Of a stretch of DNA of 64,000 nucleotides, positions 3,427 to 60,886 are shown one piece after another. The position numbers were made by a program, and so were the translations under genes. Origin of the DNA: Chloroflexota bacterium. GTDB taxonomy: Bacteria; Chloroflexota; UBA11872; VXOZ01. Each line of letters opens with the position of its first letter. The first letter of the stretch is position 1. The DNA lies in assembly GCA_026710945.1 (NCBI GenBank), contig JAPOQA010000028.1, forward strand, positions 62,001 through 126,000, written 5' to 3'. The notes under the pieces are model-generated. The model worked only from the letters and a program-made list of their open reading frames with translations, was not told the origin of the DNA and did no database searches.

Positions 3427-3501
3427 AGCAGCCTGGCAGTGCTGGCTGCCGCGACCCAGAGATCTTCCTCAGGCACAGCCGGAACACTCACGCGAAGGGC
3501 G

Positions 3502-3674
3502 CTGACAGGGGTATGTAAATGTCATTTCGAGCGCAGCGTCGAACAGGGTTCGCGGAATCTAAAGATGCTGATTTTGCAGGGCTGTGCCTTAGATTCCGCG
3601 CTCTTAGCGAAACTCCGCTGCGCTCCGTTTGGAATGACACGTGAAGTCGATTATAGAATACCTACCCTTGTCAG
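3502..3674. mobile_element. MITE-like element family A, copy 1, with 11 bp target duplication
   Basis: 173 bp with no coding potential. The left end is CTGACAGGGGTATGTA and the right end is its inverse with two mismatches (TACCTACCCTTGTCAG). The element is flanked by a perfect 11 bp direct repeat, CGCGAAGGGCG, at 3491-3501 and 3675-3685, which is the mark of a transposition event. The inside is a long imperfect palindrome starting TGTCATTTCGAGCGCAGCG and ending GGAATGACA, with GGAATCTA and TTAGATTCC near the centre. A second copy is at 48633-48814. Target duplications of 10-13 bp are known for the IS4/IS231 group; a link to such a transposase is inference, since none is in the window. Confidence 0.85.
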
Positions 3675-3684
3675 CGCGAAGGGC

Positions 3685-16512: not shown

Positions 16513-16823
16513 TGTAAGTGCCAGGTAATACGTTGACAGAATTCGCTTTCCCGTAGAGAGTGCTACAAGGCCTTGTCATTCCGAGCGTAGCGAGGAATCT
16601 AGGATCCCAGCTCAACACACTTTCACGGTCTCAGCACTCTAGATTCCTCACTCCGCTACGCTCCGTTCGGAATGACATGTATTCAGGCAAGCACAGAGCC
16701 CTGCTCCCATGTTTCTTCTACCAAATCTGTCAAAGAATTACCTGACATTTACAGGAATGATATCCACCGTCAACCCTTCAGAATGGAATGCGAATTCTGT
16801 CAGCGAATTACTCAATACTTACA
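16513..16823. mobile_element. MITE-like element family B, copy 1 (rearranged)
   Basis: Left end TGTAAGTGCCAGGTAATACG and right end ACTCAATACTTACA (inverted TGTAAGTATTGAGT) bracket a core palindrome (16573-16680, TGTCATTCCGAGCG...GGAATGACA). A second right-end-like segment, CCTGACATTTACA, ends at 16753 and suggests a nested or partial second insertion. The right flank runs into a family C half repeat. No clean target duplication is visible, unlike copies 2 and 3. Confidence 0.65.
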
Positions 16824-18035: not shown

Positions 18036-18159
18036 CTCCGACCGGAGTTATGCAAAGTTCTCCATGCTGGGAGAAGGCTGGGATGCGGGTGAAGCAGAGC
18101 TGGCCGACGAGCGAGCGTTAGCCTCCTATGCCCCCTGAATTCCGGCGTGCGCCGGGAAT

Positions 18160-18418
18160 TGTAAATGTCAGATAATTCGTTGACAGATTTGAGAACAAAA
18201 GCAACCTTTCGCAGTGTTAGACATGACTAGTACACATGTCATTCCGAACGAAGCGCAGCGAAGAGTCGCTCTTAGCGCGGAATCTAGTATGCTGAAGCCG
18301 TTAAAGTAGGGACCCTAGATTCCGCGAACAGGGTTCGACGCTTCGCTCGGAATGACATGCACCGTCAACACATCAGAATGGAAAGCGGACTCTGTCAACG
18401 AATTACTCAACACTTACA
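18160..18418. mobile_element. MITE-like element family B, copy 2
   Basis: 259 bp with ends TGTAAATGTCAGATAATTCG and the inverse of TGTAAGTGTTGAGTAATTCG, followed inwards on both sides by TTGACAGA. GGAAT lies on both sides (18155-18159, 18419-18423), consistent with a 5 bp target duplication inside a family C repeat whose end GGAATGAC is split by the insertion. The inside holds the core palindrome TGTCATTCCGAACG...CTCGGAATGACATG. No open frame is supported. Confidence 0.8.
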
Positions 18419-18507
18419 GGAATGACTGGGGCTATTCCGAGATTCTTAGAGTGGGCGAACATCGTTTGGCGAGGTATAAGAACGGAAGCTGAGAGGAAAA
18501 AGAAACC

Positions 18508-29767: not shown

Positions 29768-29982
29768 TATCGCTTGTTGGCCGGCCGCGACGAGAGGCAG
29801 TTCTTGTGGCAAGAACAATAGGCAACGTCAAGGCGTCCCACGGCCAACCTTCACAATTGCGTATTTCAATTTGCGTCCTTTGGCGCCGTGCATTGCTATG
29901 GGAGTGAGCGCGCTAACAGGGTCGCAAACAAGATGTGAAAGTGAATGTGTAGCGAGAGTTGCGGAAGAGGAGGGTCTGAGAG

Positions 29983-31461
29983 ATGGCACTGACGCGTCGA
30001 TCGCTTCTTGGTTTGATTGGGGGCGTGCCGCTGGCGGCAAGTATCGCGTCCGGTTGCGGCTTCTTTGGGGACTTGGTTGGAGGGGATTCCGGCGATAAAA
30101 CGGTAAACGTAGCCGTCTTCCTCCCCCAGGGAGAAGGAGCTAATTTCCAGGCCGCGCAGGCCGGTAACATCCTTGCCAGCCTCCAAACCGCCGCTAACGA
30201 AATCAACGATCAGAATCTCGGATTCCAAATGGAGGTAAAGCTGACGGTCGTGCCGCCGGGGCCCGTCTTTAATTTTGCCGCCTTCTTTGGCACGAGCGAC
30301 GCAAACGCGGAGCCCACGCCGACCCCTTTCAGTCCGATTGCCGAAACGCTAAACGAGGCGGCGGCAAGCGGACAGTTGGCCAGCGGCGACCCGCTGCCGG
30401 ACGTCTTGATGATCAGCAATATGAACGAGTTACCGCTCCTCTACCAGGAAGGCATCATCGAACCGTTCGAGCAGGCAACCAGAGTAGAAGGCAGTATCGA
30501 TCTCTCGGCATTTGCGCCCGGCGCCTTGGAAGCGGTGAGTTGGCAGGGGCAAGCCCTCGTTCTGCCGCTCTCCAGTTCCATCAACACACTTACGTACGAT
30601 TCAGAGCTCTTTGCGGATGCGGGTGTTGGCACACCCGGCAACGAATGGACGTGGCTCGATATGATCGAGGCGGGTAAGCGCCTCACCTACAGCGACGACA
30701 CAGGAGCGCAGTGGGGGACATATGCGCATGCTTCAGTCCCGCTACTCTTGAGCCTTATCTGGAGTCACGGCGGCGAGGTGTTCGGCTCCCAAGGCGGAGA
30801 CGTGCGCATTGCCGAACCGGAGGCAATCAAGGGCATAGAGCTTTGGCGCGATATGATTACGTTCCATCAAATTGCGCCAAATCCGCCGCAAGGCACCTTC
30901 GCCTTCCTACGCGCCGGTCGCGACGGCATGGAAGTGGTCAGCTTCGACCAACTGCCCCAGAGAGGCGGCGGCGGTGGCGGCGTTCGGCCCAGCGAAACGG
31001 CGCGCCTGGCTACTGCCGTACGCTCAGGCGGGGGGCAGGGACTTGGCCCGGAGCGCATTCATGCCGCGGCCATGCCGGTGGATGCACGGCAGGCAACGTG
31101 GGTATCACCGGTGGCAGGACTGGGCGTCGGCGCGCAAGCGAAAGACACCGGCCTGGCAGCGCAGGCGGCAGTGGTGCTGGCGCGGGAACTCTCGCAGTTG
31201 CCCGTTACGTTCTTCGGCTATCCAGTCTACAACGTCTCCGGTGAACGCATCAAGCAGGTGAGGCCGAGTCTGAGGATTGAAGACGCCACGATTATTTCCG
31301 ACGCTCTCGGCTATAGCCGGGGCGTGCCTCCCCTGCTTTCGCCGTACTTGCAGTCGCTCTTCCAGCAGCATCTCATGGCGCCGGTCTTGAGCGGTGAGAG
31401 AAATGTGGCCGACGCGGCGCACCAGTTGTCGATAGCCATGCAGGAAATGCTGCGGCAATAA
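29983..31461 (+). CDS. ABC-type extracellular solute-binding lipoprotein, paralogue 1
   Basis: 492 residues from the ATG at 29983, with GAGGAGGGTCTGAG upstream. A twin-arginine leader TRRSLLGLIGGVPLAASIASGC ends in a lipobox cysteine, so the protein is likely exported folded and lipid-anchored. The body is a family 1 (sugar-type) binding protein: FEQATRVEGSIDLSAFAPGALEAVSWQGQALVLPLS, WTWLDMIEAGKRLTY and GTYAHASVPLLLSLIWSHGGEVF. A glycine run (30964-30981) interrupts the C-lobe. About 73% similar by eye to paralogue 2 at 32257. No permease or ATPase gene is nearby. Confidence 0.85.
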   Translation: MALTRRSLLGLIGGVPLAASIASGCGFFGDLVGGDSGDKTVNVAVFLPQGEGANFQAAQAGNILASLQTAANEINDQNLGFQMEVKLTVVPPGPVFNFAAFFGTSDANAEPTPTPFSPIAETLNEAAASGQLASGDPLPDVLMISNMNELPLLYQEGIIEPFEQATRVEGSIDLSAFAPGALEAVSWQGQALVLPLSSSINTLTYDSELFADAGVGTPGNEWTWLDMIEAGKRLTYSDDTGAQWGTYAHASVPLLLSLIWSHGGEVFGSQGGDVRIAEPEAIKGIELWRDMITFHQIAPNPPQGTFAFLRAGRDGMEVVSFDQLPQRGGGGGGVRPSETARLATAVRSGGGQGLGPERIHAAAMPVDARQATWVSPVAGLGVGAQAKDTGLAAQAAVVLARELSQLPVTFFGYPVYNVSGERIKQVRPSLRIEDATIISDALGYSRGVPPLLSPYLQSLFQQHLMAPVLSGERNVADAAHQLSIAMQEMLRQ

Positions 31462-31465
31462 ACTC

Positions 31466-31491
31466 CGGATCACTGGTGGACCAGTGATCCG
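31466..31491. terminator. perfect hairpin after solute-binding protein 1
   Basis: CGGATCACTGG (31466-31476), loop TGGA, CCAGTGATCCG (31481-31491), four bases after the stop codon. No T run follows, so termination would be rho-assisted or the hairpin may protect the mRNA end. Confidence 0.6.
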
Positions 31492-32256
31492 ACACGAGCC
31501 AGGCAAGGTCTGGCTTTGCTTCCCTCAAGAGTGGGGCAGCCGCTGTAGATTCGTGATTTGGCAAATCCTCATAACGCGACGTGCACCCGGAATACTGTTA
31601 GAAGGTGAGCGACCGTGAGGTCCTACTAAAGAGGACCCGCGGCCTGCGCTTCGCCAATGCTTCGACAGCGCCCATGTTGTGCCTGTCGAAGCATTAGCTC
31701 TTAAGGGTCTTGCGGCTCCCAACCGAATCGAACGAGCGGTGATTGCGCACACTACCGATCGGGCACTCAATTCGACTCAGCGAATTTCGACCATACAATG
31801 CCTTTCAATGCCACGGGTGCGATGGATAGCAATGTGGTGGCAAGTCTACCTTGCAGCGGCCTGAATTGGCCCAGTGTTGCCGATTGCGCCGTATCCCGCC
31901 GGAAAGCGATGGCGCGAATCGTCGCTAAGGCATGTTCAAAGTCCCTTCGTCGTCACATTTACCTTCACATTCTCTTGACAATTGAGCAGTAGCATGGGGA
32001 TGAGTTGGCAAGCGCCGCGCGGCGCGCGGGTTGCCCTTCGGGGCTTGATTGCCCAGAGTGCTGCTGGAGAGTGTCGGTAAGTTCACTCGTCATCTTGTGG
32101 TTCGCCATCTGCGCGCAAGCAAACCAAGACGTAAGCGTGGGGCGCAAATGGGCTTTCATCGTGAGGAACTTTTGAATTCCACAAGACGAGCGGCAGCAGA
32201 GGTTGCTTTACATAGGACACGTGTAGCGCGAAAGATTGCAAAATGAGAGGTATGTG
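31492..32256. other. gap between the two binding-protein genes
   Basis: 765 bp without a supported gene. A perfect 13 bp inverted repeat, AATGCTTCGACAG at 31656-31668 and its complement at 31683-31695, sits near the middle. The last 50 bp, GTGTAGCGCGAAAG onwards, resemble the leader of the first binding-protein gene (GTGTAGCGAGAG), so the duplication included the upstream region. Confidence 0.5.
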
Positions 32257-33750
32257 ATGGCGATGACGCGTCGTTCGTTTCTTGGCCTGGTCGGTGGCGT
32301 GCCGGTAGTGGCAAGTCTCGCCGCCGGCTGCGGTTTTTTTGACGGCCTAGTGGGCGGAGATTCCGGAGACAAGACGGTAAACGTTGCGGTTTTTCTGCCC
32401 CAGGGGCAGGGGGCCAACTTTCAAGCTGCACAAGCCGGCAACATCCTTGCCAGCCTCCAGTCCGCTGCCAATGAGATTAACGATCAGAATCTTGGCTTCC
32501 AAATGGAGGTCAACCTAACGGTCGTGCCCCCGGGGCCGAACCCTAACTTTGGCGCCTTCTTTGGCGCTGCTGCTAACGCTGAACCGACGCCGACCCCGTT
32601 CAGCCCGATTGCCGAAACACTCAATGACGCGGCTGCGAGCGGGGAGTTGGCCGGTGGGACCCCATTCCCAGACTTGCTGTTGATCAGCAACATGAATGAG
32701 CTGCCGCTGCTTTACGATGAAGGCGTCATCGAGCCGTTTGAGCAGGCCACGCGGGTGGAAGGCAGCATCGATCTGTCGGACTTCGCTCCCGGTGCGATGG
32801 AATCGGTCCGTTGGCAAGGGCAAGCCCTTGCCTTGCCGCTTTCCAGCACTATCAATACGCTCACCTATGATGCGGACCTCTTGGCCAACGACGGTGTGGC
32901 GGCGCCGGACGGTGGGTGGACCTGGCCCGAGATGATCGAGGCAGGCAAGCGCCTCACCTACAGCAACGAATCGGGTTCCCAATGGGGTACCTATGCGCAT
33001 GCCTCGGTGCCGATGTTGCTCAGCATGATTTGGAGCCACGGCGGCGAGGTGTTTGACGCCCAGAATGGCGCCGTGCGGCTGGCTGAACCAAATGCCGTCA
33101 AAGCCATCGAGCTCTGGCGGGATATGATTGTCGTACACAACATTGCGCCAAATCCGCCGGAGGGCACTTTTGCCTTCATGCGCGCGAATCGCAATGGCAT
33201 GCAGGTAGTCTCCTTCGACCAAGCACCCGGCGGCGGCGGGGGCCGTGGCGGTGGCGGCGGCGGAGGAGGCGCGCAGCCCAGCGATACGGCGCGCTTGGCG
33301 ACTGCCGTGCGCTCCGGCGGGAACCAAGGACTAGGTTCGGAGCAGATCCATGCCGCGCCGTTGCCGACGGACTTAGGGCAGGCGACGTGGGTTTCCCCTG
33401 TGGCCGGGCTGAGCGTGGGGGCGCAGGCCAAGGATACTGGCCTGGCAGCGCAGGCGGCGCTGGTGCTATCCCGAGAACTCGCGCAACTGCCGGTTACGTT
33501 CTTTGGCTATCCGGTTTACAGCGTAACGGGCGATCGGATTAAGCAGGTGAGGCCAAGCCTAAGAATAGAGGACGCCAATATCATCGCAGATGCCCTCGGC
33601 TATAGTCGAGGCATTCCGCCCTTGATCGCCCCCTATCTACAGTCACTCTTCCAACAGCATCTCATGGCGCCGGTCCTGAGCGGTCAGACCACGGTATCCG
33701 ATGCTGCCGAAGAGCTGTCATTCGCGCTCCAGGAAATGCTGCGGCAGTAA
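32257..33750 (+). CDS. ABC-type extracellular solute-binding lipoprotein, paralogue 2
   Basis: 497 residues from the ATG at 32257 after GAGAGGTATGTG. Same architecture as the gene at 29983: leader TRRSFLGLVGGVPVVASLAAGC with twin Arg and lipobox, then a type 1 binding fold with WTWPEMIEAGKRLTYSNESG, GTYAHASVPMLLSMIWSHGG and QLPVTFFGYPVYSVTGDRIKQVRPSLRIED. The glycine run is longer here (33229-33273, GGGGGRGGGGGGGG) and encoded mostly by GGC/GGT/GGA. The pair arose by tandem duplication. Without a transporter beside them they may serve permeases encoded elsewhere or act as surface receptors. Confidence 0.85.
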   Translation: MAMTRRSFLGLVGGVPVVASLAAGCGFFDGLVGGDSGDKTVNVAVFLPQGQGANFQAAQAGNILASLQSAANEINDQNLGFQMEVNLTVVPPGPNPNFGAFFGAAANAEPTPTPFSPIAETLNDAAASGELAGGTPFPDLLLISNMNELPLLYDEGVIEPFEQATRVEGSIDLSDFAPGAMESVRWQGQALALPLSSTINTLTYDADLLANDGVAAPDGGWTWPEMIEAGKRLTYSNESGSQWGTYAHASVPMLLSMIWSHGGEVFDAQNGAVRLAEPNAVKAIELWRDMIVVHNIAPNPPEGTFAFMRANRNGMQVVSFDQAPGGGGGRGGGGGGGGAQPSDTARLATAVRSGGNQGLGSEQIHAAPLPTDLGQATWVSPVAGLSVGAQAKDTGLAAQAALVLSRELAQLPVTFFGYPVYSVTGDRIKQVRPSLRIEDANIIADALGYSRGIPPLIAPYLQSLFQQHLMAPVLSGQTTVSDAAEELSFALQEMLRQ

Positions 33751-39872: not shown

Positions 39873-39949
39873 GGTCTATGGGCAAGTCTGAGTTGCCCAT
39901 CATTGAGAGTTCTGCTCGCACACTCTGGATTCCTCGCTGCGCTCGGAAT

Positions 39950-40217
39950 TGTAAATGTCAGGTATTTCGTTGACAGATTCGGCACGAGTATTCGGTGGTT
40001 CTGTCGTCGTGAGCGACCACGACACCTGTCATTCCGAACGGAGCGCAGCGAAGTGTCGCTCTTAGCGCGGAATCTAGAGTGCTGAAGCCAGTGTACTGTG
40101 TGAAGCATGGACCCTAGATTCCGCGAACAGGGTTCGACGCTTCGCTCGGAATGACATGTACGTTCGACACAGTCCAGTGAGTAGAAGTTTTTGTCAGCGA
40201 ATTACTCAACGCTTACA
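39950..40217. mobile_element. MITE-like element family B, copy 3
   Basis: 268 bp, ends TGTAAATGTCAGGTATTTCG and the inverse of TGTAAGCGTTGAGTAATTCG. GGAAT flanks it on both sides (39945-39949 and 40218-40222). Left of it, GATTCCTCGCTGCGCTCGG is the half arm of another core palindrome, so the element has inserted into the GGAATGACA end of that older repeat. The inner palindrome (TGTCATTCCGAACGGAGCGC to CTCGGAATGACATG, about 40028-40157) closely matches copy 2. Confidence 0.82.
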
Positions 40218-40321
40218 GGAATGACACGAACTGTAAATGCGCTGTGTGCAAGTGCGGCCGTTTGGGAGATAGACACGTGTGCAATCGTGGTGCAATTGGT
40301 ATACTAGATCAAGAATTTTGC

Positions 40322-48176: not shown

Positions 48177-48649
48177 TCCTGTTCTTCGATGAGGATATGG
48201 GCACGGCCATACCCAGGTTTCTAAGGGGCGCTGATAGGGATGTAGATGTTCGCTGGCTCCGCGCGCAGTTTCCTAACGAGAGTGACCCACGCCGCCAGGA
48301 CGTAGAGTGGTTAGCGGAGGCGGGACGACAGGGCTGGTTAGTCATCTCGTGCAACAAGCGAATGCTCTCGGTGATATATGAACGCCAAGCGATTCTTCAG
48401 CACAAAGTAGGCATTGTCTACTTTGCAAGTGGTCAGGTCGGGCGGCTCCCGATGATGCGCGCGCTTCTCCGCAAATGGGACTGGCTCAAGGCTGCGGACC
48501 TATCTGAACCTCGACCGTTTGCCTACTACCTCTATGCCAGCGGTCGGACTCGGCAGCTAAGCCTCGAGACTAGGCGAGTACCGATTCAGGGCCCGGAGTC
48601 TGCCGGTGCCAACTGCCCTACCCCCGGTCGGGCTGACAGGGGTATGTAG
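48173..48649 (+). CDS. PIN-like toxin candidate (DUF5615 type), tail altered by MITE insertion
   Basis: 158 residues from a GTG at 48173 that overlaps the DUF433 gene stop. FFDEDMG at the N-terminus supplies the first acidic residues of the PIN-like fold, followed by WLAEAGRQGWLVISCNKRML, where family members usually carry a D-rich T-x-D-x-D motif; here the acids are replaced by CNK. The last five residues (ADRGM) and the stop lie inside the A element at 48633. Without the insertion the frame would run on into a 22-residue tail ending TAASS. The protein is probably an inactive or weak RNase, or the active site differs. Confidence 0.75.
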   Translation: MILFFDEDMGTAIPRFLRGADRDVDVRWLRAQFPNESDPRRQDVEWLAEAGRQGWLVISCNKRMLSVIYERQAILQHKVGIVYFASGQVGRLPMMRALLRKWDWLKAADLSEPRPFAYYLYASGRTRQLSLETRRVPIQGPESAGANCPTPGRADRGM

Positions 48650-48814
48650 ATGTCATTCCGAGCGCAGCGTCGAACAGGGTTCGCGGAATCTAGGGCCATG
48701 CCACATGTCGCAAGAAAGGCTCAGCACCTTAGATTCCGCGCTCTTAGCGACACTTCGCTGCGCTTCGTTCGGAATGACATGTGAAGTCGATTATAGAATA
48801 CATACCCCTGTCAG
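48633..48814. mobile_element. MITE-like element family A, copy 2, with 11 bp target duplication
   Basis: 182 bp. The ends CTGACAGGGGTATGTA and its exact inverse complement (48799-48814) form 16 bp perfect terminal inverted repeats. An 11 bp direct repeat CCCCGGTCGGG flanks it at 48622-48632 and 48815-48825. The inside is the core palindrome TGTCATTCCGAGCGCAGCG...GGAATGACATG. It sits exactly between two convergent genes and its ends supply their stop codons (TAG for the PIN-like gene, TGA for the creatininase gene). Confidence 0.9.
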
Positions 48815-49704
48815 CCCCGGTCGGGGATGTGCTGGTTGGCATGCCAGAAGGAATCTTCAGGCACCGGCTCCGGGGACTGCTGCATCGAGTTGAAGTCCTT
48901 GAGCGCCGGGCGCACGTCGTCTTCCCAGATGTCCTCAATGTCGGCAAACGTCAGAGTCTTGCGCGTCGGCTGCACACGGTCGTACTCCGCCACAAGTTCG
49001 TTAGCGGCTGCGCCGAGGCTTGCCACGATGTCGGCACTCATGCGTTCGCCGGCGCGGCGGTCGGATGCAGTGGCGTCATCGCCCATGGCAAAGTGCGGCC
49101 CCGGGGTACCGGCCGGCGGAATGCGGGTGAGGTCCACGCCGCCCGGCGTCACCGCCCACAGCAGCGATGTCTCGCCGCGGCCGGCGTGACCGCCCATGCC
49201 CGCATCGTCCTCGAAGCGCGACTCTTCCGTGCCCATGCCAATCGGCATATGGCAGTGCAGCCGGGTCGCCACGTGCCGCTGCATGATCTCCAAGAACACC
49301 GGAATGTCCGGGCTATGGGGGCCGGCGTGACCGGAGAAGATGATGGCGCCATGAAAGCCATGGGCGTCCACGGCACGGATGTGGTAGCTCATGTTCTTGA
49401 AGAACATCCACGGCGGGATGGACGTGAGCCACGTGCGGTTATTGCCGATGGTGCGGTCCCCCCAGTTGGCGGACGTCCCCGCCTCGTGATTGTGCCAATA
49501 CGTGGTCGGCATCACGATCCCGCCGTATTGTTCCGCCGCCTGGCGCATATGGCCTTCGGGCCGCAACGCATCACACCCCACCACGTTCTGCGGCCCGTGC
49601 GGCTCGCACAACCCATACGGCATGTACACCACCGGAAACGCCGCCACCGCCGCTTCCAACTCATCCCGGAACATCAATTCCCAACGCACTTCTCGCTGTT
49701 TCAT
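48811..49704 (-). CDS. creatininase family protein
   Basis: 297 residues from the ATG at 49704, which has GAGGAG nine bases upstream; an ATG at 49710 is too close to it. The family metal site is seen in VYMPYGLCEPHGPQNVVGCD and in GGHAGRGETSLLW, with IIFSGHAGPHS between. Members are metal-dependent amidohydrolases such as creatininase, mycofactocin peptidase MftE and formamide hydrolases. The stop TGA lies in the inverted end of the A element; before the insertion a TAG in the same place gave the same C-terminus (ANQHIPDRG). No substrate clue from the neighbours. Confidence 0.85.
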   Translation of the reverse strand: MKQREVRWELMFRDELEAAVAAFPVVYMPYGLCEPHGPQNVVGCDALRPEGHMRQAAEQYGGIVMPTTYWHNHEAGTSANWGDRTIGNNRTWLTSIPPWMFFKNMSYHIRAVDAHGFHGAIIFSGHAGPHSPDIPVFLEIMQRHVATRLHCHMPIGMGTEESRFEDDAGMGGHAGRGETSLLWAVTPGGVDLTRIPPAGTPGPHFAMGDDATASDRRAGERMSADIVASLGAAANELVAEYDRVQPTRKTLTFADIEDIWEDDVRPALKDFNSMQQSPEPVPEDSFWHANQHIPDRG

Positions 49705-51705: not shown

Positions 51706-52100
51706 TGAAGCTGAGGGGGGGGGCAGCGGATTAGCTGAGGCCTCTCGTGGGCCAATTGGGAATTCTGGATTTGACGGCAGGCGACTCCACCGTCACTTCC
51801 GCAGGGCTGAACACGAGGAGGAAAGAGAAGATGGATTCCCGTTTTCACGGGAATGACGGACAGATTGGCCTTCTCTTAGTAGCGCGGGGGCTCGTCCCCC
51901 GCTCCTGGGTGGGCCTGTGCTCTGTTCGAGGGAAGCATTCTGGAGATAGTCAGTGGGCCGTTGGTCACGTGGTGAAGAGAAGATGGATTCCCGTTTTCAC
52001 GGGAATGACGGAAGGAAGGCATTTCCTTCGTATTGACGGAGTTGGGCACGCGAAAATGACGAAAATCAATGTTTTCGCTTAGAGATAAGGATTGCAGGGC
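51706..52100. repeat. gap with two identical family C repeats and one family E repeat
   Basis: A 37 bp unit starting AGAGAAGATGGATTCCCG and ending GGGAATGACGGA occurs twice without change (51824-51860 and 51976-52012), 152 bp apart. A family E palindrome lies between them at 51879-51904. No coding sequence supported. Confidence 0.8.
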
Positions 52101-60564: not shown

Positions 60565-60886
60565 GCCACCCTTCAACGAAAACTTTCCTACCTGTCATTC
60601 CGAGCGCAGCTACGTGTCATTCCTGTAAGTGTTGACGGATTGCGCTCCGCTTCCCTCTTCGTAGCGCGGGGGCTTGTCCCCCGCTCTTGTCGGTAGCGCA
60701 TGGCCTGTCCATCGCTCTTCTTGGTAGCGCGGGGGCTTGCCCCCCGCTCTTGCATGCAAGGTGATACTCTCATTTGCAGGAGTCCCGCTTCGTTTGACGT
60801 GTGGGACAGATTGCGCGCGGATGCGATGGCATGAACTGTGCCGGGTTTGAGTTCAAGAGCGGCCGCGGTCTCCAAGGACGATGCCA
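60565..60886. repeat. gap with truncated core palindrome, B-type end and two family E repeats
   Basis: CCTGTCATTCCGAGCGCAGC at 60592 and TGTCATTCCTGTAAGTGTTG at 60618 combine a core arm with a B-type end (TGTAAGTGTTGACGG), without a matching right end. Two family E palindromes in the same orientation follow at 60661-60686 and 60724-60749. No gene. Confidence 0.6.

Follow-up and report, generated by a model that had tools for sequence, protein, structure and literature searches.

A MITE family inserted at the tagged end of CGTC-type REP palindromes in a Chloroflexota genome and its candidate IS481-like parent

Copies of the element in the window

The window analysed here is a stretch of 64,000 nucleotides, positions 62001-126000 of contig C28, in the 3.52-Mb, 70-contig assembly of a Chloroflexota bacterium (genome G000). 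It contains two complete copies of a MITE, designated family B in an earlier sequence-only reading, both on the forward strand. Copy 1 (259 bp, 18160-18418, ends TGTAAATGTC.. and ..ACACTTACA) is 86-94% identical to its nearest full-length copies elsewhere in the genome and is bordered by GGAAT at 18155-18159 and 18419-18423, the right repeat being followed by a GAC tag at 18424-18426. The REP that it interrupts forms the stem-loop AATTCCGGCGTGCGCCGGGAAT at 18138-18159. Copy 2 (268 bp, 39950-40217) is bordered by GGAAT at 39945-39949 and 40218-40222, again followed by a GAC tag. The TGTAA...TTACA ends, the GGAAT flanks and the coordinates that the sequence-only reading had given for both copies proved exact.

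Joining the flanks yields ...CCGGGAAT followed by GACTGG for copy 1 and ...GCTCGGAAT followed by GACACG for copy 2. The motif is restored in both cases, as had been claimed, but copy 1 sits in a short REP-type palindrome, AATTCCGGCGTGCGCCGGGAATGAC, and the label "family C" given to its host is undefined; it is the genomic copy C22:31760, not copy 1, that sits in a GCTGACAGGGGTAT-ended repeat (81% over 171 nt). A partial copy had also been placed after the motif at 60627. The motif GTCATTCC is indeed present at 60616-60623, but the match starts at 60624 and extends for only ~13 nt (feature 60616-60637, forward strand), so that this truncated relic or chance match is weak evidence. A third, composite copy that had escaped notice occupies 16513-16823 of the forward strand: an element at 16513-16753 is followed by GGAATGA and what is left of the right arm of another copy (16754-16823), and its right flank, ATTTCCGCGCACGCGGGAATCCA, is a REP.

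The interior of copy 1 (18238-18356) consists of REP-like palindromes paired head-to-head, with the target motif GTCATTCC at 18238-18245 and GGAATGAC at 18349-18356. One motif of each kind (≤1 mismatch) lies at the base of an internal hairpin in 46 of the 49 full-length copies. At least three copies are nested within others; at C47:23004, C46:13046 and C59:93328, the rejoined flanks match another MITE across the junction. Ends spaced ~70 nt apart, such as 16753/16823 in the composite copy, fit an element that entered the inner GGAATGAC of a further copy, after which one arm was presumably lost.

Other repeats share the window. A second miniature family with ends GCTGACAGGGGTAT...TACCCYTGTCAGC (3501-3675, 48632-48815) encloses a head-to-head REP pair similar to that of family B, as would result from the capture of one core by different transposon ends. 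Palindromes starting with GTAG, GTAGCGCGGGGGCTTGTCCCCCGC (8071, 8468, 51873, 60655, 60718) and GTAGGGGCACGAT..ATCGTGCCCCTAC (3685, 44460, 45541, 46386), seem to coexist in the genome with the CGTC-type repeats. The window also includes a tandem gene duplication (29982-33552), in which the adjacent paralogous ORFs 29983-31461 and 32236-33750 share 77-79% DNA identity.

Element ends across the genome

The terminal 20-mer, with up to 3 mismatches, has 75 matches in the genome compared to 0 for the reversed control, and a degenerate 27-mer search detects 138 ends. Many contigs of the assembly break off within a copy. Stretches were fetched around the copies, and 135 ends were read with their flanks; 123 of these adjoin GTCATTCC or GGAAT, exactly or nearly. 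The adjoining motif is GTCATTCC at 41 ends exactly, at 33 with 1-2 mismatches and at 6 with a shift of 1-3 nt; it is GGAAT at 35 ends exactly and at 8 with 1 mismatch, the remaining 12 having other flanks. Because the background of GTCATTCC is low (461 occurrences in 3.52 Mb, 38 for the reversed control), chance is excluded as the source of this pattern. This is the tabulation of genomic copies that the sequence-only reading had called for, and the outcome that would count against it, most copies lying in unrelated sequence without GGAAT, was sought and not found.

The family has the hallmarks of a MITE: it is non-coding, 226-270 bp long, with 27-bp terminal inverted repeats and a 5-bp target site duplication (TSD). 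Roughly 20 of the 52 paired copies show no legible 5-bp duplication, and many have the tagged motif on both sides. The missing duplications could be explained by recombination between copies sitting at opposite ends of a single palindrome, which the doubly tagged copies would fit, or by nesting; loss of duplications through such recombination has been documented for other ISs (PMC11708052). At about 6 ends in G000 and several in the congener G039, ATTCC and TGTAA are separated by 1-3 additional bases, mostly C; the extra C bases recur as GTCATTCCC followed by TGTAA at L060:2059-2070, near position 747 of L210 and near 669 of L213.

The target site

Empty sites were rebuilt by joining the flanks of the 32 copies that retain at least 4 of 5 duplicated bases. 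The resulting consensus is YGTC-ATTC(C/T), with the last five bases duplicated and the cut falling where the YGTC tag meets the stem of a CGTC-tagged REP. Among the 32 sites, the individual bases of GTC are conserved in 30, 31 and 29 and those of TTC in 30, 32 and 32, and the exact 8-mer is present in 20. The stems beyond the junction vary (CGCG..CGCGGGAATCC, GGCG..GCCGGAATCC, GAGCGCAGCGAGGAATC and others), and the outer flanks past the tag share nothing (0.01-0.6 bits at positions -4 to -10), which indicates that the insertions are independent. Insertions are found in both orientations. In three copies at GTCATTCT targets, the variant ATTCT is duplicated on both sides; therefore, the 5 bp derive from the target. 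Nine ATTCC flanks lack GTC and have GTT, GTG, GTA, AAC, ATC or TTC instead.

The target shows the Y-GTC tag, the AT-starting stem and the unpaired CCA-like tail of CGTC-tagged REPs, as in CGTC-ATTCCCGCGCACGCGGGAAT-CCA at a C15 site and in an unoccupied example in the window, CGTC-ATTCCCGTGAAAACGGGAAT-CCA near 51850 (reverse strand, 51833-51860, coordinates approximate to a few bases). The GAGCG-type palindromes, which end in CTA or CCA, are looser matches. Most copies are inserted at one point of a REP, the behavior that defines REP-targeting ISs. The proposal that the transposon aims at another repeat is thus upheld, with the target refined from GGAATGAC of one family to the tagged end of CGTC-type REPs, YGTC-ATTCC. 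Target choice by the element, as judged from the sequence, appears probable.

Candidate parent element and its transposase

An autonomous element with matching ends, the candidate parent, lies outside the window, ~35 kb before it, at C28:26570-27668 (L060:2071-3169). This 1,099-bp element has the 27-bp ends of the MITE (25-26 of 27 positions match), and its single ORF encodes a 348-aa DDE transposase, the only close gene copy in the genome. Its flanks, gtcATTCCC and ATTCCGAG, represent the MITE target plus one extra C. The best-matching family of the transposase is IS481 (NCBIfam, E=1.9e-53, 181.8 bits), and the TGT...ACA ends and a TSD within 2-15 bp agree with this assignment; because the scores, 181.8 and 195.8 bits, fall under the curated cut-off of 224, we only use the name "IS481-like".

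The catalytic residues were assigned from conserved motifs as D169, D249 and E291, with 41 residues separating D249 from E291. The motif ERFWRTLN has N, not Q, at +7, and the length of 348 aa compares with about 394-507 aa in the IS1202 family, which argues against membership there. The DDE (rve) transposase and the 5-bp TSD likewise separate this system from RAYT-mobilised REPs, which depend on an HUH tyrosine enzyme. Two short insertions in the G000 transposase (L060:2111-3154), located near DFSPS and CFCEAEDG, are absent from relatives; the frame is open, and the protein may be active. An AlphaFold2 model of a relative's transposase reached a mean pLDDT of 57.7 (two sequences) and was set aside. 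Most likely, the MITE is moved by the transposase of the IS481-like element with the same ends.

Congeners and other genomes

At the locus of copy 1, five congeners keep both genes with 80-296 bp between the matched blocks, against 647 bp in G000, and lack the element; the spacer in G038 holds a REP, GGATTCCGGCGTTCGCCGGAATGACGG, which may not be the orthologous repeat. At the locus of copy 2, G040 keeps both flanks but no element, and GAAATGAC stands at the equivalent position. In G039, 10 of 36 ends have unrelated flanks, and no transposase is found at E≤1e-60. In this genome, element ends lie tens of bases from the edges of contigs C5, C13, C19, C25, C36, C43, C45, C61 and C64, as expected if a multi-copy autonomous element had collapsed in the assembly.

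Relatives of the transposase are encoded by MAGs that carry the labels Dehalococcoidia (two complete copies), Nitrospirales, Chloroflexota and Deltaproteobacteria; two of these relatives have a complete or near-complete gene and share 71% and 66% identity with the query. Their element ends lie at the same junction in 11 of 14 cases in Dehalococcoidia, 13 of 16 in Nitrospirales, 1 of 1 in Chloroflexota and 5 of 6 in Deltaproteobacteria. The Dehalococcoidia genome contains 557- and 778-bp deletion derivatives in CGTC-ATTCC sites with the TSD ATTCC. The Nitrospirales MAG contains a 251-bp MITE in TGTC-ATCCC-CGACCTAATCGGGGATCCA, with ATCCC duplicated, matching the local REPs. This MITE has no CGTC REP inside, whereas the G039 copies do, so that target-carrying may be peculiar to the genus of the window. 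The cross-phylum distribution rests on record titles because MAG labels may be wrong through contamination. Within the phylum, none of the other 399 genomes sampled has the transposase at E≤1e-50, and in this sample the exact ends are confined to the genus of the window. Plasmids and viral contigs yielded no close relative, and phages only remote ones (<30% identity).

Proposed mechanism and alternatives

In all probability, the whole of these observations is explained by an IS481-like transposase moving the MITE into YGTC-ATTCY, mainly at REP bases, with the MITE carrying its own landing sites. Family B would be driven, through its 27-bp terminal inverted repeats, by the transposase whose intact source is C28:26570-27668. 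The transposition complex would read YGTC-ATTCY, which here is chiefly the base of CGTC-type REP palindromes on their tagged side, and make a staggered 5-nt cut spanning from the GTC tag to the fifth base of the stem, so that the element could enter in either orientation with duplication of ATTCC. The head-to-head REP-like pair in the MITE would provide two landing sites per copy, each copy thus becoming a landing place in which further copies nest and then recombine. By inference, the transposase itself reads the target and acts on the MITE in trans, and the family remains active.

The same flanking bases at most ends might suggest that GGAAT/ATTCC belongs to longer ends of the element that are copied along, with no target choice. 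This is scarcely credible: the flanks are direct, not inverted, repeats; sequence past GTC differs from site to site, and one flank runs into many different REP stems; an unrelated genome has ATCCC instead, and the congener loci are uninterrupted. GGAAT was rejected as a part of the element on target covariation, given that variant flanks agree with each other (ATTCT/ATTCT). Alternatively, homologous recombination or gene conversion between REPs might have spread the copies with no need for a transposase. This would account for those with chimeric flanks and missing duplications, but is very improbable in view of the coding element with the same ends and of the many unrelated sites, occupied in both orientations, that show an exact 5-bp duplication. 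Equally improbable is random or broad insertion in which only the copies in intergenic REPs survived selection. The avoidance of genes that it predicts is observed: 2 of 48 insertions lie inside an ORF of at least 200 aa compared to 334 of 480 positions drawn at random from the same loci. Selection fails, however, to explain the base-exact junction, the restriction to the tagged end and the nested copies at the same junction. The suggestion of the sequence-only reading that the target specificity limits gene damage thus holds descriptively and need not be an adaptation; the genes are spared because REPs are intergenic, and selection could contribute to this.

The alternative with the greatest weight, still an unlikely one, is that the complex reads the REP hairpin or cruciform, in a RAYT-like manner, rather than a linear motif. 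A shuffle-based stem test (4 of 32 positive) lacked the sensitivity needed for short stems, and a comparison of partner motifs with controls took its place. A hairpin partner is present at 26 of the 32 occupied sites compared to 263 of 976 ATTCY sites without GTC, and in the Nitrospirales MAG the motif shifts to ATCCC along with the local REP. However, unoccupied GTCATTCY sites are partnered equally often (57/68, p=0.78), so that among these 32 occupied and 68 unoccupied sites the hairpin adds no measurable preference once GTCATTCY is present, and the linear motif is the simpler reading. Moreover, none of the 135 flanks corresponds to an insertion at the untagged end (GATTCC) of the same hairpins, and 6 of the 32 sites, by the simple criterion, have no partner, C2:12227 and C31:63244 being among the sites without a hairpin.

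Beyond the reading of YGTC-ATTCY by an IS481-like transposase, we offer, as a conjecture with the odds against it, that a cross-phylum IS481-like clade is dedicated to CGTC REPs and tracks the local REP, and that the MITE of this genus enclosed a REP pair, multiplying the element together with its landing sites. If true, the MITE would be a vehicle spreading CGTC REPs and one answer to the question of how REPs without a transposase multiply. A target-carrying MITE represents a natural case of an element multiplying its own targets, and as a parasite it would largely spare genes. The base-exact target common to relatives in differently labelled phyla makes the transposase a candidate for dissecting site choice by a plain DDE enzyme.

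Comparison with known systems

The literature searched, which excludes most subscription journals and ISfinder, holds no report of an IS481-like, CGTC-REP-specific element, and a text search for the target 8-mers returned unrelated papers, apparently primer matches. What is new here is an IS481-like, CGTC-REP-specific clade with target-carrying MITEs; REP-targeting ISs are already known in other families.

REP-specific ISs have been described in the IS3, IS110, IS4, IS256 and IS5 families, for example, IS1397, ISKpn1 and ISPsy8 (IS3), IS621, ISPpu9/10 and ISPa11 (IS110) and ISRm22 (IS4), and the specificity of IS1397 and ISKpn1 is thought to reside in the transposase (PMC1525189). The present element shares with them a fixed insertion point in an intergenic palindromic repeat. 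Unlike those ISs, none of which is IS481-like, it targets a CGTC-tagged REP, and nearly all of its copies are MITEs, which carry the target. An IS481-like lineage would thus join the ISs for which REPs serve as safe landing sites.

Among members of the IS481 family, duplications are mostly 6 bp, with a range of 2-15 bp (PMC10045372). The single DDE transposase, the TGT...ACA ends and a TSD length in this range are shared with that family (PMC10045372; NCBIfam NF033577), whereas the sub-cut-off score, the D-D-41-E spacing, the TSD of 5 bp instead of the usual 6 and the REP target are not. The IS1202 family, related to IS481, includes dif-targeting elements with 5-bp duplications (PMC10132070). 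Its ISAjo2 group resembles the present element in the TGT ends, the 5-bp TSD and a strong site preference, in that case for dif, but those elements are 1.5 kb long and encode proteins of 441-457 aa with Q seven residues past the catalytic E, compared to 1.1 kb, 348 aa and N here.

CGTC-tagged REPs, including Neisseria dRS3, apparently have no dedicated transposase, their association with transposase genes being only fortuitous (PMC3733652), and they had no known transposase partner. The target hairpins described here resemble them in the Y-GTC tag, the AT-starting stem and, in places, the CCA tail. The difference is that here an IS clade lands at the junction of tag and stem, which need not involve mobilisation of the REP itself.
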